From Mycolicibacterium mucogenicum DSM 44124 (GTDB lineage Bacteria > Actinomycetota > Actinomycetes > Mycobacteriales > Mycobacteriaceae): a DNA stretch of 64,000 bases. The notes under the pieces were generated by a model. That model searched no databases. It worked only from the letters and a program-made list of their open reading frames with translations, and had not been told where the DNA came from. The stretch is from assembly GCF_005670685.2 (NCBI RefSeq), contig NZ_CP062008.1, positions 1,054,001 through 1,118,000 of the forward strand, given 5' to 3'. The translations under genes and the position numbers were made by a program. Positions 33,898-44,106 of this stretch are shown here, one piece after another. Numbering within the stretch: the first letter of the stretch is position 1; every line of letters starts with the position of its first letter.

Positions 33898-34662
33898 TTA
33901 TCCCGACGCGAGCTTGAGGATGTGGCTCATGATGTCGGGGTAGCGCTTCAGGTGGGCGCCGCCGTTGAGGTCGAGCACCTCGCCCGTCATCCATGACGAC
34001 TGCTCCGAGCACAGGAACAGCACGGCGTTCGCGATGTCCTCGGGCGTACCGGCGCGGCCCAGCGCGGTGTTCTCCACGTACTCGTCGACGACGCCGGGAA
34101 CCATCGCCGCACCTTCGGTCAGCGGCGTGTGCACGAAGCCCGGTGCGACGGCGTTGACGCGAATTCCCTTGGGGCCCAGCTCCAGTGCGGCCACCTCGGT
34201 CAGCATCGACAGGCCCGCCTTGGCGGCGCTGTAGGCGCTCATCCCGATCGCCGGCTGGCGCCCGTTGAGCGACGAGATGCACACCAGGGACCCGCCTTCA
34301 CGGAGCTGCCGTCCGGCGTACTTGGTCACGATGAAGGAACCGGTCAGGCAGCAGTCGACGACGGCACGGAAATCTTCGACCGGCGTGTCCACGATGAGCC
34401 CGAAGGTCGAGAATCCGGCGCAGCTGACGACGGCGTCGAGCTCGCCGGCCTGCTCGAAGGCGGCGGCGACGGATGCCTCGTCGGTCACCTCGACCGTGAC
34501 TGCGGTGTGCGGTTCACCGAGTTCGGCGGCGCGGGCCTCGGCGAGTTCGGCGTTCCGGTCGGCAATGGTGACGCGGTAGCCCTGCGCGGCCAGGCCCCGG
34601 GCAGTGGCCCAGCCGATACCGGATGCCCCACCGACGATGAGGGCGTTGCGCTGTGTGCTCAC
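33898..34662 (-). CDS. Short-chain dehydrogenase/reductase
   Basis: 254-aa classical SDR: cofactor motif VGGASGIGWATARGLA, NAG-type segment replaced by SCAGFS, catalytic Ser in CISSLNG, and YSAAK (Tyr/Lys). The ADR after the second strand favours NAD(H). The substrate is unknown; the C-terminus (LNGGAHLKRYPDIMSHILKL) resembles 3-oxoacyl/steroid reductases. A palindromic operator candidate lies 56 nt upstream. First gene of the variable island. Confidence 0.85.
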   Translation of the reverse strand: MSTQRNALIVGGASGIGWATARGLAAQGYRVTIADRNAELAEARAAELGEPHTAVTVEVTDEASVAAAFEQAGELDAVVSCAGFSTFGLIVDTPVEDFRAVVDCCLTGSFIVTKYAGRQLREGGSLVCISSLNGRQPAIGMSAYSAAKAGLSMLTEVAALELGPKGIRVNAVAPGFVHTPLTEGAAMVPGVVDEYVENTALGRAGTPEDIANAVLFLCSEQSSWMTGEVLDLNGGAHLKRYPDIMSHILKLASG

Positions 34663-34717
34663 TGATTTCTCCCCTGCCGTGATCGACGACCGGCCAGACC
34701 GGGGCGCCGCAGTGTGA

Positions 34718-34735
34718 ACAGATTAACAAATCTGT
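34718..34735 (-). promoter_or_regulatory. Operator candidate ACAGATT-N4-AATCTGT
   Basis: ACAGATT (34718-34724) and AATCTGT (34729-34735) form a perfect 7-bp inverted repeat with 4-nt spacer, upstream of the SDR gene. The shape fits a TetR-type repressor site. No regulator gene adjoins it directly. Confidence 0.55.
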
Positions 34736-34794
34736 CTACACCCGGAGGCTCGAGTGGCGTTCAGAACTTGGATGCCAGCGCACCGTGTCAGTTA

Positions 34795-34834
34795 TGTACT
34801 GAAAAATACAGTCGATGTACTGTGTAGTACATCG
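34795..34834 (+). promoter_or_regulatory. TGTACT operator cluster before DUF417 gene 1
   Basis: CGATGTACT (34813-34821) and AGTACATCG (34826-34834) are a perfect 9-bp inverted repeat with spacer GTGT. A further TGTACT half-site lies at 34795-34800, 21 bp from the next one. The core TGTACT-N4-AGTACA recurs at 38813-38828 between the TetR and peroxiredoxin-like genes. Confidence 0.65.
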
Positions 34835-34884
34835 ATGGCGTCCGTGAGGGACGGCACTCACCGGTTCAGGCAAGGACGGGTCCG

Positions 34885-35364
34885 TTGATTGTTCAGCCTT
34901 CGGTTCAGGCGCACCGCATTACGACCATGGGCCAAATCGCAGCCAGATATGGCCTTGTCGTCGTATTGGCCTGGATCGGCGTCGGCAAGTTCGTGAAGAT
35001 GGAAGCTCACGTGCTGATCGAGCACAGTCCGCTGATGTCGTGGGTCTATCAGCTGCTGAGTCATCACGCCGTCGCTGCGGCATTGGGCACGGCCGAGATC
35101 GTCGCCGCGGCGCTCATTGCGGTCCGCCCGCTATGGCCGCGGCTGTCGGCGGTGGGCAGTGCGATGGCAGTGGTGCTGTTCCTCGGCACGCTGAGCTTCC
35201 TGTTCACAACTCCGGGTCTCGTAGCCGGGCATGCCGGTCCCGTGCCGATCCTGGGTGCGTTGCCAGGCCAGTTCCTGTTGAAGGATCTGGTGCTCATCGG
35301 GGTGTCCATCTGGACATTGGGTGACGCGCTCGGCCACCGCATGCCGAACCGGCCCCGCTCCTGA
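34885..35364 (+). CDS. DUF417 (RclC/YkgB-like) membrane protein 1
   Basis: 159-aa protein with four helices. The family pattern is clear: ARYGLVVVLAWIGVGKFVKMEAHVLIEHSPLMSWVYQLL, then SAVGSAMAVVLFLGTLSFLFTTPG and GQFLLKDLVLIGVSIWTLGDAL. In E. coli the DUF417 protein RclC belongs to the reactive-chlorine-response regulon. The start is TTG 34885, with AAGGACGGG upstream; ATG 34927 is the alternative. Expression is probably controlled through the TGTACT operator 50-90 nt upstream. Paralogue of the gene at 36036. Confidence 0.82.
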   Translation: MIVQPSVQAHRITTMGQIAARYGLVVVLAWIGVGKFVKMEAHVLIEHSPLMSWVYQLLSHHAVAAALGTAEIVAAALIAVRPLWPRLSAVGSAMAVVLFLGTLSFLFTTPGLVAGHAGPVPILGALPGQFLLKDLVLIGVSIWTLGDALGHRMPNRPRS

Positions 35365-35502
35365 TCGCAATCTGTTCCGGCGCAGCATAATTCACCGCGA
35401 CCGACCGAATGCGGTCAGACATCGAGTGTGCGGCGTCGCGATGGGCAGCCGGCGCGCGGCAGGACAGGCGACCTGCTGCACGCCGGTGAACCGGCCGAGC
35501 GC

Positions 35503-35856
35503 CTATTTGGCGTTCGGGCAGGCGATGTCGACGTAGACGGTGTTCAGACCACCAGGCTCCATCGTCATCATGGTGACGTCGGACGCCGTCACCGTGACTT
35601 TCAAGCCGGAGATGCTGGCGACCTTGCACTCGGACAGCGGAACATTCGGGTGTCCCTCAAGCCAATTGATCGACACGTCGTATCCCGCCTCTTGCAGCTG
35701 CTGAACGGCGATGCTGGCTGGTCCGTTGCCGGGGGTGGGCAGGATCTGGGAGTTGGCCGCGGCGTTCGGCGCGGCCGCGAGAGTCAGCGTGGCACCGCCG
35801 ACCACGGCCCAACGGATGATCTTGCCCAAGCTCAGGGTGTTGGTGGCATTGCTCAT
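35503..35856 (-). CDS. Small secreted protein, 117 aa
   Basis: Signal peptide at residues 1 to about 34 (IIRWAVVGGATLTLAAAPNAAANS) followed by a mature part of about 83 residues: ASIAVQQLQEAGYDVSINWLEGHPNVPLSECKVASISGL ... VYVDIACPNAK, with two cysteines likely in a disulfide. The QQLQEAGYDV segment recalls PASTA-like beta-alpha folds, but homology is not established. The ATG at 35856 is preceded by GAGGAG. It is transcribed against its neighbours inside the stress island. Confidence 0.75.
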   Translation of the reverse strand: MSNATNTLSLGKIIRWAVVGGATLTLAAAPNAAANSQILPTPGNGPASIAVQQLQEAGYDVSINWLEGHPNVPLSECKVASISGLKVTVTASDVTMMTMEPGGLNTVYVDIACPNAK

Positions 35857-36035
35857 GATGTGTACTCCTCGTTTCTCGGTAGGGGCGGCAGCCCATTTCG
35901 CCGAGTAAGTGTCGGCGCGCCCCAACTTCGTTACAGCGGGTTTCCGGCGTCGTGTAACGCTCACGTGGCGGCAGCGCACTCAGTTTCGTAAGCGCCGGCG
36001 GACTTCCCGCCGCGAGGGAGCTGAAGGGGTAACCA

Positions 36036-36539
36036 ATGACCGCGACCAAGATTCGGGACTACACACTGTCAGCGATATCAGAGGCCATCGTGAGTCGAAT
36101 TGCCGGCCATCTTGCCCGCTACGGCCTTGTCGTCGTAATCGGGTGGATCGGCCTGCTGAAGTTCACTTCGTATGAGGCACAAGGTATTCAGCCGCTCGTT
36201 GCGCACAGTCCATTCATGAGTTGGATGTACGACGTCTTCTCCATCTCGACATTCTCGTCCCTGCTGGGTGTGCTCGAAGTCGGCACTGCGGTGTTGCTCG
36301 CCGTCAAGCCGTGGTGGCCGAGAGTGTCGGCGGTCGGAAGTCTGATCGCCGTCGGCTTGTTCATCGCGACGATCAGCTTTCTGTTCACCACGCCGGGGAT
36401 CGGCGAGGCGGCTGCCGGTGGCTTTCCTGCGCTGTCGATGACGGGCCAGTTTCTGATCAAAGACGTTGCATTGCTCGGGATTTCCGCATGGACATTGGCT
36501 GATGCGCTGCAGGCGGGGCGGGCGGCGAATCGTGTCTGA
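36036..36539 (+). CDS. DUF417 (RclC/YkgB-like) membrane protein 2
   Basis: 167-aa paralogue of the 34885 gene: LARYGLVVVIGWIGLLKFTSYEAQGIQPLVAHSPFMSWMYDVFS is closer to E. coli RclC than paralogue 1 (the EAQGIQPLV segment). Four helices; GQFLIKDVALLGISAWTLADAL closes the domain. AAGGGG lies 8 nt before ATG 36036. Its stop overlaps the reductase gene GTG by eight bases, so the two are translationally coupled and head a likely operon of four genes. Confidence 0.85.
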   Translation: MTATKIRDYTLSAISEAIVSRIAGHLARYGLVVVIGWIGLLKFTSYEAQGIQPLVAHSPFMSWMYDVFSISTFSSLLGVLEVGTAVLLAVKPWWPRVSAVGSLIAVGLFIATISFLFTTPGIGEAAAGGFPALSMTGQFLIKDVALLGISAWTLADALQAGRAANRV

Positions 36540-37248
36540 ACAGTCCTTCGATTTTGGCGGCCTGCGTGCGCTGTTCATCAACTGCACCCTCAAGAGATCG
36601 CCTGAGGTCAGCAATACCGAAGGTTTGATCGACATCAGCAGTCGCATCATGGTGGCCAACGGAGTCGAGGTCGAGGTGGTGCGCGCCGTCGACCACGACA
36701 TCGCCACCGGCGTGTGGCCGGACATGCGGCAGCACGGGTGGGCCACTGATGACTGGCCCGCGATCTTCGGCAAGGTGCTGGCTGCCGACATCTTGGTGCT
36801 CGCCGGACCGATTTGGTTGGGCGACAACAGTTCTGTGATGAAGCGCGTACACGAACGGCTCTACGGAGGTTCGCATCTGCTCAATGACGCCGGGCAGTAT
36901 CTGTACTACGGCCGGGTCGGAGGCTGCCTGATCACCGGCAACGAGGACGGCGTCAAGCATTGTGCGCAGAACGTGCTCTATACGTTGCAGCACATTGGAT
37001 ACACCATTCCGCCGCAGGCCGACGCCGGCTGGATCGGGGAGGCTGGCCCGGGTCCGTCCTACCTCGACCCGGGTTCGGGCGGACCGGAGAACGACTTCAC
37101 CAACCGAAACACCACGTTCATGACGTGGAACCTGATGCACGTGGCGCGGATGCTGCGTCATGGCGGCGGCATCCCGGCCTACGGCAATGTTCGGTCCGGA
37201 TGGGACGCTGGTTGCCGGTACGACTTCACCAATCCCGAGTATCGCTGA
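36532..37248 (+). CDS. Flavodoxin-fold NAD(P)H-dependent reductase
   Basis: 238-aa protein of the NADPH-dependent FMN reductase / flavodoxin-like class. FMN phosphate loop LFINCTLKRSPEVSNTEGLI near the N-terminus and the flavin-contact GPIWLGDNSSVMKRVHERL (about residues 88-106) are visible, with GGCLITGNEDG and C-terminal Trp/Tyr-rich parts typical of the subgroup. GTG 36532 overlaps the DUF417 stop. It may reduce quinones or oxidised flavins in oxidant defence; substrate inferred only from context. Confidence 0.8.
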   Translation: MSEQSFDFGGLRALFINCTLKRSPEVSNTEGLIDISSRIMVANGVEVEVVRAVDHDIATGVWPDMRQHGWATDDWPAIFGKVLAADILVLAGPIWLGDNSSVMKRVHERLYGGSHLLNDAGQYLYYGRVGGCLITGNEDGVKHCAQNVLYTLQHIGYTIPPQADAGWIGEAGPGPSYLDPGSGGPENDFTNRNTTFMTWNLMHVARMLRHGGGIPAYGNVRSGWDAGCRYDFTNPEYR

Positions 37249-37269
37249 GCGACTATGCTCCCGGTCATC

Positions 37270-37905
37270 ATGACCAGAGTCGTAGGTGACGAAGACGCTC
37301 TCGTCGCCGCGTTGAAGCGCGGCGACGAGAGCGCGTTCGTCGAGCTGGTGGATCGCCACACTCCGGCGCTGCTACGGGTTGCGCAAGGTTATGTACCTAC
37401 CCGGGAGATTGCCGAGGATGTCGTACAGGACACCTGGATCGCATTGCTCAAGGGGATCGGCTCGTTCGAAGGCAGATCCTCCTTGCGCACTTGGCTTTTC
37501 GCGATCTTGATCAATATTGCCAAGAATCGGGGTGTCCGTGAACGCCGGGACGCCGATCTGGCGGTGGTTGCATTCACCGGTGGAACCGTCGACCCCGCGC
37601 GGTTTCGTGGCACTGACGACCCCTACCCCGGGCACTGGCTGCCGACCGCCGCACCGTCGCCGTTCCCGGATAGCCCCGAGGGATCTGTCCTCGGTCAGGA
37701 ACTGATCACGGTCGCCCGGCAGGGGCTCGACAAACTGCCCGAACGCCAACGTGTCGTGGTGACGATGCGTGACATGCTGGGATTGGACTCCGACGAGGTC
37801 TGCGAGCTGCTCGAGATCACCGCAGCCAACCAGCGCGTCCTGCTCCATCGAGGCCGCGCCGCCGTCCGGCAGGTGCTCGAGGACTATCTGAGGGATACGG
37901 CATGA
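37270..37905 (+). CDS. ECF-type RNA polymerase sigma factor
   Basis: 211-aa extracytoplasmic-function sigma factor. Region 2: EIAEDVVQDTWIALLKGIGSFEGRSSLRTWLFAILINIAKNR (core and -10 binding); region 4: LPERQRVVVTMRDMLGLDSDEVCELLEITAANQRVLLHRGRAAVRQ. A long linker of about 50 Pro-rich residues separates them. No sigma-1.1 or SnoaL extension. The start is ATG 37270 or ATG 37255. It lies 21 nt after the reductase gene and overlaps the anti-sigma gene by ATGA, so sensor and sigma are co-expressed. Confidence 0.9.
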   Translation: MTRVVGDEDALVAALKRGDESAFVELVDRHTPALLRVAQGYVPTREIAEDVVQDTWIALLKGIGSFEGRSSLRTWLFAILINIAKNRGVRERRDADLAVVAFTGGTVDPARFRGTDDPYPGHWLPTAAPSPFPDSPEGSVLGQELITVARQGLDKLPERQRVVVTMRDMLGLDSDEVCELLEITAANQRVLLHRGRAAVRQVLEDYLRDTA

Positions 37906-38141
37906 CGACCAATCCGATTGACTGCAACGAACTCGTCGAGTTGGTGACGTCTTACCTCGACGGAACTCTCGATCTGGAGGACCGGGCGCGCTTCGACATG
38001 CACCTGCTCGAATGTGACGGCTGTGAGAACTACCTTCAACAGTTCCGCAGCACTATCGCGACCGTCGGCAAGATCGGTGCGGATGAGTTCGACCCCGGCT
38101 TCCGGAACCGTCTGATCGACGCATTCCGCAACTGGCGCTGA
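37902..38141 (+). CDS. Zinc-binding anti-sigma factor (zf-HC2)
   Basis: 79-aa soluble anti-sigma factor without transmembrane helix. Zinc motif His34-x3-Cys38-x2-Cys41 (MHLLECDGC) with Cys8 as probable fourth ligand, as in RsrA-type redox-sensitive ZAS proteins. Oxidation of these thiols typically releases zinc and frees the sigma factor. Overlap with the sigma gene by four bases supports partnership. It ends 15 nt before the convergent TetR gene. Confidence 0.88.
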   Translation: MTTNPIDCNELVELVTSYLDGTLDLEDRARFDMHLLECDGCENYLQQFRSTIATVGKIGADEFDPGFRNRLIDAFRNWR

Positions 38142-38156
38142 AGATTCAGGGCGGCG

Positions 38157-38783
38157 CTAGCTGGACCGCCCTCGTTTGGGTGCCGGCCCCACGGCGGCTG
38201 CCAATGCGGTATCCAACGCGTGTCGCAAGGGTGCGACATCACCACTGACGTCCGCCAGCAGCATGCCGCCCTGATAGGCCGCAAGCAGCGCGGCGGCCAA
38301 CACTGTCGGCTCGGTGCCCGGCAATAGCCCGCCGCTGTCGGCGACCCGTTGCAGAGCGTCGGCCATGACCTGTTCCCAGCGGGCGAACCCCGACTTGAGC
38401 GTCGCTCTGGCCGGGCCGTCGTCGGCGCGGTCCAGCTCATAGACGAGCGAGCCGATGGGGCAGCGGATGGGATCATCCGAGGCTGCGTGGGTGCGGAGTG
38501 CGTCGGCGCACCAGGCCCTCAGATCGGCCGCGGTGCGGACGTCGTCGAACGACGGCTGGACCGACGACAGCACCCTGTCCACCTGGAAGCGGACCACGTC
38601 GGATACCAGGTCGGCCTTGTCGGCGAAGAAGTGATACAGCTGGCTGCGGCCCGCCCCGGCGGCGTTACCGATCTCATCGAGCGTGGTGGCCCGTACCCCC
38701 TGCCGAGCGAACAATACGCACGCTGCTTCGAGGATCCGGGTCACCGTCGCACGCCCGCGGTCGGTGGACGGTTCTGTAATCAC
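38157..38783 (-). CDS. TetR-family regulator with Cys108
   Basis: 208-aa TetR repressor: HTH in residues about 12-58 (ATTLDEIGNAAGAGRSQLYHFFADKADLV), then a helical ligand domain. Cys108 in PIRCPIGSLVYEL aligns by eye with the position of Cys106 in E. coli NemR, the HOCl/electrophile sensor, though a Cys there is frequent in this branch. It is divergent from the peroxiredoxin-like gene across a 101-nt region with several inverted repeats, implying autoregulation and control of that gene. Confidence 0.88.
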   Translation of the reverse strand: MITEPSTDRGRATVTRILEAACVLFARQGVRATTLDEIGNAAGAGRSQLYHFFADKADLVSDVVRFQVDRVLSSVQPSFDDVRTAADLRAWCADALRTHAASDDPIRCPIGSLVYELDRADDGPARATLKSGFARWEQVMADALQRVADSGGLLPGTEPTVLAAALLAAYQGGMLLADVSGDVAPLRHALDTALAAAVGPAPKRGRSS

Positions 38784-38786
38784 CGC

Positions 38787-38828
38787 ACCAATGTATCAAT
38801 TGGTCCAATATCTGTACTTTGTAGTACA
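38787..38828. promoter_or_regulatory. Operator region between TetR and peroxiredoxin-like genes
   Basis: Three inverted repeats are stacked: ACCAAT (38787-38792) / ATTGGT (38799-38804), the overlapping ATTGGTCCAAT (38799-38809), and TGTACT (38813-38818) / AGTACA (38823-38828). The first two fit the TetR autoregulatory site next to its start at 38783; the third is shared with the region before DUF417 gene 1. Confidence 0.65.
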
Positions 38829-38884
38829 TTGCGACGAATGTTGCTGGCTGACAACGCCTCAGTGCCGACTGATGGGAGATAACA

Positions 38885-39430
38885 GTGGTTCTCGATGTGG
38901 GGGACAGGTTTCCCATCGACGTTGCGGTGACATACCCGGGCGGGGACGTCAGCGTCGCGCAGTTGATCGCGGCTGGACCTGTGGTGGTGGCATTTCACCG
39001 GTTGTGGTGTCCGTTCTGTCAGCAGGCTGCCCGCGACCTCGATCGTGTCAGCGACCCCCTCGCCGCTGCGGGCGCGCGCGTGGTCATCGTCTACCGCGAT
39101 GACATCGACACGGTGTGTACGTCGTGTGTGGAGCGCGGCCTGGCCGTTGACTGTGCCAGTGACCCGCGGCAGGAACTTGAGCGTGCCACCGAAGTAGGTC
39201 GTTTCTCGGTCGGCCGTTATGCCATGTTCTCGCCGATGCGCCTGATCCGCGTCTTGCGCGCGGGTAGCCGCGCGGGCAAACCCACGTCGGACGTTCTGCA
39301 GGGACGCGGCACGTTCGTCGTCGGCCGTGACGGGCGCATTGCCTACGCCCACCACGCCGTCACGGCAGCCGACATTCCATCGGTCGACGATATTGTTGCC
39401 GCGGTGCGAGCGCTCGCAGTCGATCGGTGA
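38885..39430 (+). CDS. Peroxiredoxin-like (AhpC/TSA-type) CxxC protein
   Basis: 181-aa thioredoxin-fold protein. The active-site segment VVVAFHRLWCPFCQQAARDL (Cys42, Cys45) is typical of AhpC/TSA_2-like peroxiredoxins; a second pair CTSC (Cys78, Cys81) and the Thr-Phe-Val-Val-Gly strand (GTFVVGRDGRIAYAH) follow. It probably reduces peroxides or other oxidants. GTG 38885 is preceded by GGGAG. Divergent from the TetR gene and preceded by the TGTACT-N4-AGTACA site. Confidence 0.82.
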   Translation: MVLDVGDRFPIDVAVTYPGGDVSVAQLIAAGPVVVAFHRLWCPFCQQAARDLDRVSDPLAAAGARVVIVYRDDIDTVCTSCVERGLAVDCASDPRQELERATEVGRFSVGRYAMFSPMRLIRVLRAGSRAGKPTSDVLQGRGTFVVGRDGRIAYAHHAVTAADIPSVDDIVAAVRALAVDR

Positions 39431-39525: not shown

Positions 39526-40116
39526 TCAGTGGTGACGGTGGTAATGCCGTGCCGCTCGCGTGCGATTGGCGCAGATGTTCTGGGTGCAGAATTTTCGGCG
39601 CGCGTCCTGCGCGACGAAAAGCATACTGCAAGAAGGGTTCTCACAACGGCGCAGCCGCTCTGACGTTGGCCCAACCAGAAAGTCGATGAGGCTGTCAGCG
39701 ATGAAGGCGACAGCAAGCTGATATGGCTGATCGGTGGGCGCGTGATAGTCGATGTCCGATGCCCAGCCGGTGGGGACGCGCACCAACTTCCTGGTCCGTG
39801 GAACATCGGCAGCAATGCGATTCACATAACTCACGGCGCCGTCATTGGGTGGCGTGCCGGCAATTTGTGCGTCGAGGATCTCGCGGATGGCCTGGCGCAA
39901 TTCGACGGTGGGGCCCATCGGTGGTGGCAACGCAGCGTCGGGCAGGCGATCTTGCTGGAGGTCCCACCACAGGCGGCAGGCGGTCTCGTTGGCGAGCAGG
40001 TCGGTGGCCGGTGTGGTCGCCGTGATGATCGTGTCGGCCAAATCCACCGCCAATGGCTCACCGGCCACGGGAAATCCGGCGTGCTGCGCGCGCTCCAGTC
40101 TCGATGTGGCCGCCAC
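39526..40116 (-). CDS. CGNR zinc-finger regulator (ABATE-like)
   Basis: 196-aa protein. N-terminal helical stress-sensor-type domain (AVDLADTIITATTPATDLLANE opening typical of ABATE proteins) and a C-terminal CGNR zinc finger: CENPSCSMLF ... RRKFCTQNICANRTRAARHY, four cysteines. The eponymous CGNR reads CANR here. Such proteins are putative transcription regulators. It is divergent from the DinB-like gene across a region with repeated TAACG motifs, likely its own operators. Start ATG 40116. Confidence 0.82.
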   Translation of the reverse strand: MAATSRLERAQHAGFPVAGEPLAVDLADTIITATTPATDLLANETACRLWWDLQQDRLPDAALPPPMGPTVELRQAIREILDAQIAGTPPNDGAVSYVNRIAADVPRTRKLVRVPTGWASDIDYHAPTDQPYQLAVAFIADSLIDFLVGPTSERLRRCENPSCSMLFVAQDARRKFCTQNICANRTRAARHYHRHH

Positions 40117-40119
40117 CGA

Positions 40120-40198
40120 ATTAACGGTAGCACTCCGTTGACAACGTTAGCCGCCATCGCGTAGAACACTAACGATAAATATCTACTACTAACGTTAG
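40120..40198. promoter_or_regulatory. Array of TAACGNTAG-like operator motifs
   Basis: The divergent promoter holds TTAACGGTAG (40120-40129), CAACGTTAG (40141-40149), CTAACGAT (40168-40175) and the perfect palindrome CTAACGTTAG (40188-40197). The repeats are the most conspicuous feature of this otherwise AT-rich gap. Confidence 0.6.
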
Positions 40199-40209
40199 GT
40201 AGGGTTCTG

Positions 40210-40779
40210 ATGAGACCTCTTGAATTGCTCTCCGGGGCCGATGCCCGACTGGTCGGCCTCGTGTCGACGTTGACGGCGTCGGACCTCGACCTGTCGAGTC
40301 CGTGCGCGGGATGGTCGGTGCGGTCGCTGCTGAGCCACACCACCTCCTCGATCGACGCCTTCGCGGCTGCCGTCGATGGCCGCGGCGGGCCGACGGAAGC
40401 GGAATTGTTCAGTGGCGCTGACATTTTGGGGTCGGACCCGTTGGCAGTTGTAGAGCAGTCGATCGGCCGTTCCCAGCGTGCATGGGCCACCATCGGTGAC
40501 TGGCAGCATCCAGTTACCACGGTGCTCGGATCGATGCCGGCGGCCGAGGCGATCAGCATCATCACCTACTCGACACTCATCCACAGCTGGGATCTTGCGG
40601 TCGCCGTGGGACGAACGGTCGAGTTCGATGACGCTGAGGCTGCGCTGGCAGAGAGCGTAGGTGCAGCACTTGTGCCCGCTCTACAACCTCAGGGCTTGTT
40701 CGGTCCGGGGGTTGATTTGGGTGGCGACGCCAGTCCGACGCAGCGGGTCATCGCCTTCGCCGGCCGCAATCCACTTTGA
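40210..40779 (+). CDS. DinB-fold mycothiol-dependent enzyme-like protein (TIGR03086)
   Basis: 189-aa protein of the maleylpyruvate-isomerase-like / TIGR03086 metal-binding group: LLSGADARLVGLVSTLTASDLDLSSPCAGWSVRSLLSHTTSSIDAFAAAVDG with metal His in SHTT, and a later THSWD-like segment (TLIHSWDLAVAVG) supplying the second His. The family includes mycothiol-dependent isomerases and transferases; the reaction here is unknown. ATG 40210 follows a GTAGGG tract. Divergent from the CGNR regulator, which probably controls it. Confidence 0.78.
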   Translation: MRPLELLSGADARLVGLVSTLTASDLDLSSPCAGWSVRSLLSHTTSSIDAFAAAVDGRGGPTEAELFSGADILGSDPLAVVEQSIGRSQRAWATIGDWQHPVTTVLGSMPAAEAISIITYSTLIHSWDLAVAVGRTVEFDDAEAALAESVGAALVPALQPQGLFGPGVDLGGDASPTQRVIAFAGRNPL

Positions 40780-40789
40780 TCCGGCTACC

Positions 40790-41665
40790 TCACCCGTTCC
40801 GCACACACCGGAAGCCGACGTGGCTCATCCCCGTATCGACCGCTTGGGGACGACGGGCCGCCGGCCGGTAGCGGAGACAGTAGCTGTCCGCGCACAGAAA
40901 CGAACCGCCCTTGATCACCCGGCGCGGTACCGGTGTGCCCGGCTGATCCGGGTCGTAACTGTCTGCGGCGCAACAGGGTTGGCTGTCACGGGTCGCGCCG
41001 TAGAAGTCGGTGGTCCATTCCCAGACGTTGCCTGCCATGTCGAACAGGCCGTAGTCGTTCGGCGGGAAGCTGCCCACCGGTGTGGTCTGGCCGTAGCCGG
41101 TGTCGGGCAGGTAGGGGAATTCGCCGTGCCAGAAGTTGGCCAGCCGTTGGCCGGGTTGTTCGGGTTCGTCGCCCCACGCGTAGGTGGCGCGGTCCAGGCC
41201 ACCGCGCGCCGCGACCTCCCACTGCGCCTCGGTGGGCAGGGCCAGCCCGGCCCACTCGGCGTACGCCGCGGCGTCCTCGAACGCCACGTGTACGACGGGA
41301 TGTTGCTCCCGATTCCGCAGCGAAGACTTCGGGCCCCGCGGGTGGTTCCAGCACGCGCCCGGCGTCCACGTCCACCACTGGCTGAGGTGACGCAGGTCGA
41401 CGGGGCCGGGCGTGCGCCGGAACACCATCGAGCCGGGTTGCAGGTTCTCCGCTGGAGCGCCCGGATAGTCCGCGGGGTCGAGCGGCCTTTCGGCCACTGT
41501 GACGTAGCCGGTGGCTTCGACGAATGCGGCGAAGTCCGCGTTGGTCACCTGGCGGGGCTGAATCCAGAAGCCCTCGACGGTGACCTCGCGCGCGGGCGCC
41601 TCCTCGGGGTAGTGCCCGTCGGAACCCAGCACCGCCGTCTGCCCAGGAATCCAGACCAAGGTCAA
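40790..41665 (-). CDS. Formylglycine-generating enzyme (sulfatase activator)
   Basis: 291-aa FGE/SUMF1-fold protein. It oxidises the active-site Cys of type I sulfatases to formylglycine using O2. The catalytic pair Cys258 and Cys263 lies in GGSFLCADSYCLRYRP, with spacing as in human FGE Cys336/Cys341; LTEAQWE-type LPTEAQWEVAARGG and NVWEWTTDFY are further hallmarks. The start is TTG 41665, which overlaps the HAD stop as TTGA, giving LVWIPGQTAVLGSDGHYPEE. Third gene of the sulfatase operon. Confidence 0.88.
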   Translation of the reverse strand: MTLVWIPGQTAVLGSDGHYPEEAPAREVTVEGFWIQPRQVTNADFAAFVEATGYVTVAERPLDPADYPGAPAENLQPGSMVFRRTPGPVDLRHLSQWWTWTPGACWNHPRGPKSSLRNREQHPVVHVAFEDAAAYAEWAGLALPTEAQWEVAARGGLDRATYAWGDEPEQPGQRLANFWHGEFPYLPDTGYGQTTPVGSFPPNDYGLFDMAGNVWEWTTDFYGATRDSQPCCAADSYDPDQPGTPVPRRVIKGGSFLCADSYCLRYRPAARRPQAVDTGMSHVGFRCVRNG

Positions 41666-42555
41666 CGGGGGAACACCTCGGCCCAGTCGGACCGCATGCT
41701 CGCCACGGTCCAGCCCTCGGTCTTTGCCAACTCCAGGACCCGTTCGGCCCCTGCGATGTAATCGAATTCGCGCTCGGCGTCGTCGTGCCGCACCAGCAGC
41801 CGGAAGTTGCGGGCGTACTCGAGCATCTCGATATCGCCGTTGGAATTGCCCGCGGCGAAGATCGGCCGGCGCCCGGTCCGGCCCCAGATTCGGGCCGGTT
41901 TCACCGGGCCGTCGTCGAGGAATTCCGGCTGGGACGTGGTGTACAGGTCGCCGTCCCGGTATTGCAGCGCAACCGAACTGCCTATGACACGCTCCGGCGG
42001 GATGCCGTACATGCTGCCGGTGACGGGCCGCATGAAATCGCGTCCGCCGCCGGAGACGATGTAGCAGGTGAACCCGTTCGCCTCCAGGTACCGCAGCAGT
42101 TCGACCATCGGGACATAGCCGCACTCGGTGTACGGACGGTCCAGCGTCGGATGCCGGACCTCGGCGAAGAATCCCGTGACCCGTTCGGTGAGCGCATCGA
42201 CGGTGATGGCGTCGTTGGCCGAAAGAATGCCGGCGGCAAGGATTTTCAGATCACTGTCGTCGCCTTCGTAGTGCTTGGTGACGGCGTCGCCGAACCAGGC
42301 CAGGTCGCCGGACACGGCCGCGGTGTACGGCTGACGTGCGGCCAGCGACGGATCGGCAGCGGCCTGAGCCGCCAGCCGGCGCACCAGGAAATCCAGCTGG
42401 ACGTACGCCGGCTTCTCGCACCACAGCGTGCCGTCGTTGTCGAAGACCGCGATGCGGTCTTGCTGCGCAACGAAATCCGGGCCTTCGGTGGTGACCCGCC
42501 CGACGAAGTCGACGATCGCCGACTTCGTCGGGCCGTTGTTCCAGGACTCCAACAC
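41662..42555 (-). CDS. HAD-superfamily phosphoserine-phosphatase-like hydrolase
   Basis: 297-aa HAD hydrolase. Motif I AVFDNDGTLW (nucleophile Asp39, acid Asp41), motif II YIVSGGGRDF, motif III Lys in DGPVKPARIW and motif IV AGNSNGDIEML are all intact, with a helical C1 cap. The gene lies between the sulfatase, whose stop abuts its GTG start, and FGE. A phosphatase for a phosphorylated or sulfated small molecule is a fair guess; the substrate is unknown. Confidence 0.87.
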   Translation of the reverse strand: MLESWNNGPTKSAIVDFVGRVTTEGPDFVAQQDRIAVFDNDGTLWCEKPAYVQLDFLVRRLAAQAAADPSLAARQPYTAAVSGDLAWFGDAVTKHYEGDDSDLKILAAGILSANDAITVDALTERVTGFFAEVRHPTLDRPYTECGYVPMVELLRYLEANGFTCYIVSGGGRDFMRPVTGSMYGIPPERVIGSSVALQYRDGDLYTTSQPEFLDDGPVKPARIWGRTGRRPIFAAGNSNGDIEMLEYARNFRLLVRHDDAEREFDYIAGAERVLELAKTEGWTVASMRSDWAEVFPR

Positions 42556-44106
42556 CTAGTCGGCCGCCAGGAACTCGTGCAGCTTCTCGACGATCTGATC
42601 GATGCTGAAGCTGGCCGGTGGGTGCCGCGGCGGGAACTCCTTGAAGGTGTCGAGGAATGCCGCGGCCATCGCCGTCGCGTAGAAGGCGAAGAAGTCGCGC
42701 CGCAGGAACCACTCGTAGTACGTGTTCGACGTGATGTCGGCGTACTCGTAGGGGTCGGTGCGCAGGTTGAAGAGCTTGGGCACCCGCAGCGGCGTGAACG
42801 GCTCGGCCCAAATCCGCAGGGTGCCTTGGCAGCGCTGCTCGGCGAAGACGATCTTCCAGTTCTCGAAACGCATCGCGACCAGCTCCGCGTCGTCGTTGAA
42901 GTAGAAGAAGCCCCGGCGCGGGCTGTGCTCGACCTCGCCCGTCAGATACGGCAGCAGATTGAACCCGTCGATGTGGACCTTGTACTCGGTCTCGCCGTCG
43001 GCACCGGCCTTGTGGCCCTTCTTGAGCTTCTCGACGATATCGGGGTCGCCCGCGGCGGCCAGCAGCGTCGGCAGCCAGTCGTGGTGCTGGATGATGTCGT
43101 TGGAGACGGTGCCCGCCTTGATCTTTCCGGGCCAGCGGATCAGCTCCGGTACCCGGAAGGCGCCCTCCCAGTTGGTGTTCTTCTCGCTGCGGAACGGCGT
43201 GGTGCCGGCGTCGGGCCACGTGTTCCGGTGCGGGCCGTTGTCGGTGGAGTAGATGACGATGGTGTCGTCGGCGATGCCCAGTTCGTCCAGGACGTCCAGC
43301 ACCGTGCCGACGTTCTTGTCGTGGTCGATCATCGCGTCGTGGTACTCGGACTGCCAGATGCCTGCTTGCCCGCGGCTCTCCGGCTTCACATGCGTGTAGA
43401 GGTGCATGTGGGTGAAGTTGCACCAGACGAAGAACGGATTGCCCTCGTCGTGCTGGCGCTTGATGTAGTCGACGGTGCGGTCGGCGATGTCGTCGTCGAT
43501 GGTCTCCATCCGCTTCGCGGTCAGCGGCCCGGTGTCCTCGATGGTCTGCTTGCCGACCGGACCGAACTTCGGGTCGTCGGGTTCGGACGAGACCTCGGCG
43601 GTGGCCTTGCAGTTCATCACCCCGCGCGGCAGAGCCTTCTCGTACAGCCGCGGGAACTGGTCCTTGTGCGGGTAGTCGTACTGCTCGGGTTCTTCTTCGG
43701 CATTGAGGTGGTACAAGTTGCCGTAGAACTCGTCGAAGCCGTGCACCGTCGGCAGGTACTTGTTCAGGTCGCCGAAGTGGTTCTTGCCGAATTGCCCGGT
43801 GGCGTAGCCCAGCGGCTTGAGCAGTTCGGCGATGGTCGGATCCTCTGCGGCCCAACCAATGTCGACGCCCGGTATGCCGACTTTGCTCATCCCGGTGCGG
43901 TACACGCTCTGCCCGCTGATGAACGCTGCCCGGCCCGCGGTGCAGCTTTGCTCGCCGTAGGAGTCGGTGAAGCGCATGCCCTCGGCCGCGATGCGGTCGA
44001 TGTTCGGGGTGCGGTAGCCCATGAGGCCGTCGCTGTAACAACTCAGGTTGCTGATGCCGATGTCGTCGCCCCAGATCACCAGGATGTTGGGTTTGCCGTC
44101 GGGCAT
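42556..44106 (-). CDS. Type I arylsulfatase with CxAxR formylglycine motif
   Basis: 516-aa sulfatase. Metal-binding Asp pair in WGDDIGISN; the formylglycine site Cys55-Thr-Ala-Gly-Arg59 (EQSCTAGRAAF) is the Cys type, which requires FGE, encoded two genes downstream. FVWCNFTHMHLYTHVK and YSTDNGPHRNTWPDAG supply further metal and substrate ligands. No signal peptide, so it is probably cytosolic. It cleaves a sulfate ester of unknown nature. ATG 44106 is preceded by GAGGAG. Confidence 0.9.
   Translation of the reverse strand: MPDGKPNILVIWGDDIGISNLSCYSDGLMGYRTPNIDRIAAEGMRFTDSYGEQSCTAGRAAFISGQSVYRTGMSKVGIPGVDIGWAAEDPTIAELLKPLGYATGQFGKNHFGDLNKYLPTVHGFDEFYGNLYHLNAEEEPEQYDYPHKDQFPRLYEKALPRGVMNCKATAEVSSEPDDPKFGPVGKQTIEDTGPLTAKRMETIDDDIADRTVDYIKRQHDEGNPFFVWCNFTHMHLYTHVKPESRGQAGIWQSEYHDAMIDHDKNVGTVLDVLDELGIADDTIVIYSTDNGPHRNTWPDAGTTPFRSEKNTNWEGAFRVPELIRWPGKIKAGTVSNDIIQHHDWLPTLLAAAGDPDIVEKLKKGHKAGADGETEYKVHIDGFNLLPYLTGEVEHSPRRGFFYFNDDAELVAMRFENWKIVFAEQRCQGTLRIWAEPFTPLRVPKLFNLRTDPYEYADITSNTYYEWFLRRDFFAFYATAMAAAFLDTFKEFPPRHPPASFSIDQIVEKLHEFLAAD

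Follow-up and report, generated by a model that had tools for sequence, protein, structure and literature searches.

Positions 34795–39430 of a 64,000-nucleotide stretch of the Mycolicibacterium mucogenicum DSM 44124 genome (contig NZ_CP062008.1, positions 1,054,001 to 1,118,000; hereafter the window) probably encode two neighbouring, self-regulating stress circuits, one built on a TetR repressor and the other on an extracytoplasmic function (ECF) sigma factor with its anti-sigma factor, each ending in one DUF417 membrane protein and released by an oxidant or electrophile. The architecture set out here is very likely correct. The TetR is predicted to take the first DUF417 gene (DUF417_1) and the tetR/peroxiredoxin-like gene pair, and the sigma factor to take the operon of the second DUF417 gene (DUF417_2), flavodoxin, sigma and anti-sigma genes together with a small exported protein. 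In the M. mucogenicum genome, searched as a single contig of 6,099,273 bases, the sigma units were found to have no operator and the TetR units to have no sigma promoter. An earlier note on this DNA had proposed that two regulatory layers act on one unit; here no transcription unit has both an operator and a sigma promoter. All of the genes named in that note were recovered by Pfam profile search, both exact TGTACT-N4-AGTACA motifs lie at the coordinates it gave, and Cys108 of the TetR and H34-x3-C38-x2-C41 of the anti-sigma factor (which has an N-terminal C8 in addition) are present. It overlooked the 21-bp pairing at both operator sites, the exported protein at 35503–35856 and the divergent sigma promoters. 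The features of the island are as follows.

34795–34831: tandem TetR operators before DUF417_1, 21 bp start to start; O1 (34795–34810) has one mismatch and O2 (34816–34831) is exact
34885–35364, + strand: DUF417_1 membrane protein (PF04224), start TTG at 34885 or ATG at 34927
35503–35856, − strand: small exported protein of 117 residues with a signal-peptide-like start (by eye), Cys77 and Cys113
35908–35935, − strand: putative sigma promoter TGTAACG-N17-CACT directed towards the exported protein (word match)
35953–35980, + strand: putative sigma promoter TGTAACG-N17-CACT directed towards the DUF417_2 operon (word match and comparison of loci)
36036–36539, + strand: DUF417_2 membrane protein (PF04224), without cysteine
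36532–37248, + strand: flavodoxin-fold, WrbA-like flavin mononucleotide (FMN) reductase (PF03358)
37255–37905, + strand: ECF sigma factor (Pfam ECF sigma regions 2 and 4)
37902–38141, + strand: zinc-type anti-sigma factor (zf-HC2; C8/H34/C38/C41)
38157–38783, − strand: TetR repressor of the TetR_C_13 type (TetR_N/TetR_C_13; Cys22, Cys92, Cys108)
38792–38828: tandem TetR operators between tetR and the peroxiredoxin-like gene; O3 (38792–38807) is weak and O4 (38813–38828) is exact
38885–39430, + strand: peroxiredoxin-like protein (AhpC-TSA; WCPFC motif)

The whole island is syntenic in Mycobacterium sp. ST-F2 (locus L136), with operators at both places. The two DUF417 proteins are 54% identical to each other; the closest relatives found for DUF417_1 are in ST-F2 (84%) and then in genomes G062 and G080 (74–75%), where they lie about 1 kb from a TetR. 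A short-chain dehydrogenase/reductase (SDR) gene at 33901–34662 was considered as an island member and rejected, no SDR being called beside the DUF417_1 operator in ST-F2 (the neighbour tables list SDR matches only from 120 bits upwards).

Probable tandem operators of the TetR circuit

The proposal of a shared operator is strongly supported by the rarity of the motif in the M. mucogenicum genome and by tandem sites 5' of tetR in relatives. A genome-wide search, which the earlier note had suggested, found the exact word only at the two island sites, 34816 and 38813, and none in a reversed control. At both places the operators form tandem pairs (34795/34816 and 38792/38813) whose starts are 21 bp apart, O3 at 38792, TGTATCAATTGGTCCA, being a weak partner of the exact O4. 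In the window, matches with up to two mismatches numbered three, including the one-mismatch site at 34795–34810, versus a shuffle mean of 0.24. With one mismatch the whole genome contains four places, three of them in the island, and the reversed control also contains four; one-mismatch sites alone are therefore at noise level, and the exact matches and their arrangement are what count. The fourth one-mismatch place, at 5429888 (L155), was rejected, as it has no partner site and falls within a coding region whose product looks by eye like an integrase.

Genome contigs were scanned for TetR relatives, which gave 18 loci, 14 of them mycobacterial (L136–L149, the named loci). Eleven of the 14 (L138–L143 and L145–L149) have a tandem pair 21 bp apart upstream of the tetR gene; L149 is counted although its tetR match lacks residues 1–74, and that copy may be broken or cut. 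The 14 named loci, together with L076 and L155, have 32 strong sites; within 60 bp, 24 of these have a partner at a distance of 21 bp, two have one at 33 bp and six have none. The 24 paired sites represent 16 distinct pairs and one pair that recurs in the count through L076, and they are not independent, since some of the loci are closely related (L140/L141/L148; L143/L146); L139 and L147 come from the same genomes (G076, G142) as L017/L076 and L019. In ST-F2 a pair with a weak second site is present at the DUF417_1 promoter, and the tetR promoter of L137 has a weak partner only. More distant TetRs (34–46% identical, L020–L045) often have a single variant palindrome near their own gene, such as TGGACT-N4-AGTCCA, and some have none of note. 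These patterns indicate that the tandem pairs are very probably the operators of the TetR.

Within the genus, the exact motif is found in 13 of 148 genomes at 17 places, two of which are those of the island. Nine of the other 15 are in loci of the island kind and six are not. G078 has four, located before a peroxiredoxin-like gene, a hydrolase gene followed by DUF417, an antiporter-like gene 2 kb from a sigma gene, and the flavodoxin gene; G004 has one before a SelL-like redox protein adjoining a TetR; G047 has one about 60 bp before the sigma gene; and those of G045, G136 and G067 precede a haloalkane dehalogenase. Outside such loci, the neighbours by eye are another TetR in G010, a MarR/GbsR-like regulator in G117 and nothing recognised in G084, and in G140, G027 and G099 (L006, L008 and L011, at 1501–1516) the exact palindrome is flanked by the genes of an SDR and of a TetR other than the island type, again by eye, so that the word is not exclusive to the island TetR subfamily. 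That some other TetR of the genome uses the sites, the neighbouring one having another target, is nevertheless highly improbable, given the restriction of the exact word to the island in the M. mucogenicum genome and the tandem sites upstream of island-type tetR genes in the 11 named loci. A 19-kb contig of G078 (L109:1–15500) contains sigma, anti-sigma, two TetR, DUF417, OsmC-hydrolase and flavodoxin genes with two exact operators; this set is the second of its kind in that genome and could be mobile.

The genes behind the operators of the close TetR group are redox-leaning, not purely redox. Operators stand before or beside peroxiredoxin-like genes in L136–L141 and L148, and at an AhpD-like protein gene in L138 (scanned) and, by sequence, in L140, L141 and L148. 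Others stand at a second AhpC-TSA protein (L137), an EamA transporter (L140) and an arginase-family gene (L138). A molybdopterin oxidoreductase (PF00174) with a disulfide reductase just downstream of tetR has operators in L142 (6731–10119, scanned) and, by sequence, in L143, L145 and L146; the L142 disulfide reductase is of the MerA/lipoamide dehydrogenase kind and scores 170.5 bits with the RclA model, below its cut-off of 740. A second member of the small exported family is found directly behind the TetR-controlled peroxiredoxin-like gene in L136 (6933–7352) and L137 (6896–7210), and the family thus seems tied to both circuits.

The same operator data bear on whether the TetR circuit might instead be a xenobiotic or electrophile response, with an organic compound (halogenated, quinone or lipid-derived) as the ligand of the TetR, and with secondary damage left to the peroxiredoxin-like and DUF417 proteins. 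LmrA/YxaF-like repressors sense organic ligands, and the match of the island TetR to an LmrA/YxaF-like C-terminal model fits such a ligand. Exact operators directly precede haloalkane dehalogenase genes (NF002043, 403–489 bits, cut-off 265) at L013:511–1440, L079:6764–7684 and L082:8291–9088, and a haloalkane dehalogenase gene follows the TetR in G004; an organohalide signal is therefore possible given these three relatives. However, the nearest TetRs of the dehalogenase genomes are only 40–46% identical to the island TetR (G136, G045, G004; in G067 on another contig), a haloalkane dehalogenase query found nothing in the window and, among the 14 named loci, only 30–34% fragments in three, and most of the operator genes scanned in the close TetR group are redox genes. 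We consider the organic-ligand explanation unlikely and retain oxidant or electrophile release of the TetR.

The sigma circuit and its predicted promoter

The sigma factor is present (E up to 1e-45) in 52 of 148 mycobacterial genomes. Of 55 matches, 54 were examined with their surroundings; a second copy in G136 fell outside the fetched stretch and was dropped. The anti-sigma gene is beside the sigma gene in 54/54 loci. A DUF417 gene is present in the fetched stretch of 41 of the 54 loci (more than 6 kb away in two) and is the first gene of the operon in 32.

De novo dyad counting upstream of the sigma loci recovered GTAAC-N18-CAC in 40/54, compared with 0.2 in shuffles. TGTAACG-N16/18-CACT with at most one mismatch was found at 42 of the 54 loci but in only 3 of 540 shuffles. 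Sorted by the first gene of the operon, the promoter is present in 32/32 DUF417, 4/4 flavodoxin, 1/2 anti-sigma and 5/16 sigma loci. Exact matches occur in 42 of the 52 sigma-bearing genomes and in 21 of the 96 others (Fisher p 4.5e-12). In the 74 fetched loci, many of which were fetched for holding sigma or DUF417, there are 73 relaxed matches and none of the reversed control. Downstream of the relaxed matches are DUF417, flavodoxin, sigma or anti-sigma genes and members of the small exported family, together with, by eye, a DoxX-like protein (L082) and SDRs (L110, L128); a few have no sensible gene behind them. The M. mucogenicum genome contains three exact matches, at 35953–35980 (+), 35935–35908 (−) and 2442901, the last of which was rejected because the called genes on both sides are on the other strand. 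From the position and co-occurrence of the word we conclude that the ECF sigma factor has its own predicted promoter, TGTAACG-N17-CACT, and that its operon is probably autoregulated. A more distant form of the sigma factor (about 50%) occurs elsewhere in the order, where 25 of 298 genomes matched, 11 of them of the own genus.

Protein features and known systems

Both DUF417 proteins belong to the family by PF04224 (69.8 bits for DUF417_1 and 115.6 for DUF417_2; cut-off 27), but score only 47.7 and 95 bits with the RclC equivalog model NF040476 (cut-off 275), which makes them family relatives and not RclC itself. Neither DUF417_1, read from the ATG at 34927, nor DUF417_2 contains cysteine, and residues K42, E47, E81, K142 and D143 are invariant in 39/39 sequences; the invariant charges and the lack of cysteine suggest that these proteins work in the membrane by something other than thiol chemistry. 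The flavodoxin matches FMN_red (PF03358, 32.1 bits, cut-off 24), and its closest solved relative is the BRAMP entry 5mji. RclA of E. coli is likewise a flavin protein. The anti-sigma factor has the H-x3-C-x2-C motif and N-terminal cysteine of zinc anti-sigma factors, with C8, H34, C38 and C41 conserved in 55–56 of 56 sequences; this C/H/C/C ligand set is that of RsrA-type switches, and the score with the RsrA equivalog model is 29.8 bits, below the cut-off of 62.5. Cys108 of the TetR, which also matches the LmrA/YxaF-like C-terminal model, is invariant in 13/13 relatives, Cys22 is found in the close four only and Cys92 in those four and two others. The peroxiredoxin-like protein matches AhpC-TSA (PF00578, 53.9 bits, cut-off 26) but scores 63.9 with the SelL-related model NF040769 (cut-off 120); it is 94% identical to a Mycolicibacterium phocaicum homologue and 82% to an M. 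mucogenicum homologue. The exported protein has 35 homologues, unnamed or mycobacterial by name, and some members of the wider family lack the two cysteines. Its predicted fold, a helix and three strands, has a mean predicted local distance difference test (pLDDT) score of 56.6, and a fold search with this low-confidence model returned 28 PDB matches and no relation to RclB (best E 1.4).

The island resembles the union of three described systems, RcrR/RcrB, RclABC and RpoE2/HrsE, with its own promoter and operator. The comparisons that follow extend to the sections of the cited sources on which they draw. In uropathogenic E. coli, the TetR repressor RcrR loses DNA binding under reactive chlorine (HOCl) through its cysteines and adjoins the DUF417 gene rcrB, the main contributor to resistance (PMC9600549). 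At the sequence level the island has the same arrangement of a TetR and a DUF417 gene behind one operator word. It differs in that the Rcr operon is described with no sigma/anti-sigma pair, that RcrR has four cysteines (54, 88, 95 and 153) whereas the island TetR has Cys22, Cys92 and Cys108, and that the island has two DUF417 genes and a peroxiredoxin-like gene (PMC9600549). RclABC comprises a cysteine-free DUF417 protein (RclC), the small periplasmic RclB, which has been suggested to act together with RclC, and RclA (PMC12096828); DUF417_2, the exported protein and the flavodoxin form a similar trio. In contrast, RclR is an AraC-type activator (PMC9600549), RclA is a hypothiocyanous acid (HOSCN) reductase whereas the island enzyme is a WrbA-like flavodoxin, and RclB has no cysteines whereas the exported protein has two (PMC12096828). 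RpoE2/HrsE of H. influenzae combines an ECF sigma factor and a small anti-sigma factor of the cytoplasm, is raised by HOCl or H2O2, and has a DoxX-type membrane protein in its regulon; it controls an MsrAB and DoxX cluster, and neither DUF417 nor a TetR layer is described for it in that source (PMC7907618).

In M. smegmatis, the zinc anti-sigma factors RshA and RseA of SigH and SigE are oxidised by NaOCl, and disulfides have been described for RsrA (PMC5430705). The promoter words of SigH and SigE, GGAAY-N18/19-GTT and GGAACY-N16/17-CGTT (PMC5430705), differ from that of the island and have no exact match on either strand in 34663–34926, 35857–36035 or 38784–38884. A different signal is suggested by Caulobacter SigF, whose promoter word, GTAACC-N16-CGAA, has a similar −35 element but CGAA as its −10 element, and which in response to chromium and cadmium directs a YedY-type oxidoreductase and a DoxX protein (PMC3511200), and the sigma circuit might by analogy answer metal stress (Cu, Cd, Zn) and not oxidants. 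In G045, one gene downstream of a relaxed sigma promoter codes for a DoxX-like protein (by eye) with weak similarity to HvfX of copper-binding ribosomally synthesised and post-translationally modified peptide (RiPP) maturation (46.1 bits, cut-off 80). We consider a metal signal quite improbable, because the anti-sigma factor of SigF (NrsF) is a six-helix membrane protein (PMC3511200) and not a small zf-HC2 protein, and none of the nine window proteins scanned matched DUF692 or DUF2063; oxidant release of the sigma factor is preferred. The earlier note's suggestion that the island is undescribed in mycobacteria stands in so far as no description was found in the open-licence PMC literature, but RclC appears as a gene name among those reported to be enriched in human lung isolates of M. 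avium (PMC8525567).

Proposed mechanism and signal

From the genes, the operator and promoter words and their conservation we infer binding, repression, release, an oxidant signal and a protective role as follows. In the first circuit, the TetR would occupy a tandem pair of 16-bp palindromes, spaced by 21 bp or two turns of the helix, both at the DUF417_1 promoter and at the promoter that tetR shares with the peroxiredoxin-like gene, until an oxidant or electrophile modifies it at Cys108, perhaps with Cys22 and Cys92. In the second, the zinc anti-sigma factor (C8/H34/C38/C41) would hold the ECF sigma factor, and thiol oxidation with loss of zinc would free it to act at two divergent promoters, yielding DUF417_2, the WrbA-like flavodoxin, more sigma and anti-sigma factor, and the small exported protein. 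An oxidant or electrophile is the best reading of the signal and a reasonably probable one, the inducer being predicted from sequence; reactive chlorine as the main signal is more doubtful. The oxidant-response unit proposed earlier is thus supported by the gene content and by the genes that the operators of relatives adjoin (peroxiredoxin-like, AhpD-like, molybdopterin oxidoreductase, disulfide reductase and OsmC-hydrolase), but not as a single unit, as the island consists of two circuits.

Several observations weigh against this account. The tetR promoter of ST-F2 has just one strong operator, and L144 has no operator near tetR. No good sigma promoter was found in 12 of the 54 sigma loci, 11 of them among the 16 in which sigma is the first gene. 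The reversed control of the promoter word is often as frequent as the word or more so (2 versus 3 in the M. mucogenicum genome, 7 versus 0 in G021), so that the count alone is no evidence and the case depends on where the word lies and on its co-occurrence with the sigma factor. Cys108 is part of a Cys-Pro motif common to relatives of unrelated function (3dpj, CPVG; 3qbm, CPIL) and is therefore not diagnostic of redox sensing. Finally, M. smegmatis under NaOCl was reported to induce SigH and SigE, and the main text of that report contains no DoxX or DUF match (PMC5430705).

In L130 (G047) an exact operator, and in L144 (Mycolicibacterium sp. CR10) one with a single mismatch, precedes the sigma gene by 60–75 bp, and the circuits may therefore be wired in series there. 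We tentatively propose, as a possibility short of an even chance, that an RclABC-like module for envelope defence exists in mycobacteria in its own right, made of a DUF417 membrane protein, a small exported partner with two cysteines, and a flavodoxin or peroxiredoxin. It would be under two interchangeable switches, the ECF/zinc anti-sigma pair with its divergent promoters and the TetR with its operators 21 bp apart, placed side by side (G000, ST-F2) or in series with TetR above sigma (G047, CR10). E. coli depends on DUF417 proteins for its defence against HOSCN (RclC) and HOCl (RcrB) (PMC12096828, PMC9600549). The sigma regulon, with two well-placed exact promoters, couples DUF417 to one exported protein and one flavodoxin and so names candidate partners, which makes the question of DUF417 action testable in a second phylum. 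The promoter word and the tandem operator provide direct predictions for binding and start sites, and the sigma factor on which they bear is found in 52 of the 148 mycobacterial genomes.

Beyond the island, genes for a CGNR-zinc-finger-like and a maleylpyruvate-isomerase-like protein (by eye) lie near the peroxiredoxin-like gene at 39526–40779 of the window, L136:4532–5785 and L137:4552–5817; the pair keeps its synteny in all three without an obvious link to the island. The neighbours at 40790–44106 read, by eye, as a formylglycine-generating-enzyme-type protein, a phosphatase-like protein and an arylsulfatase.

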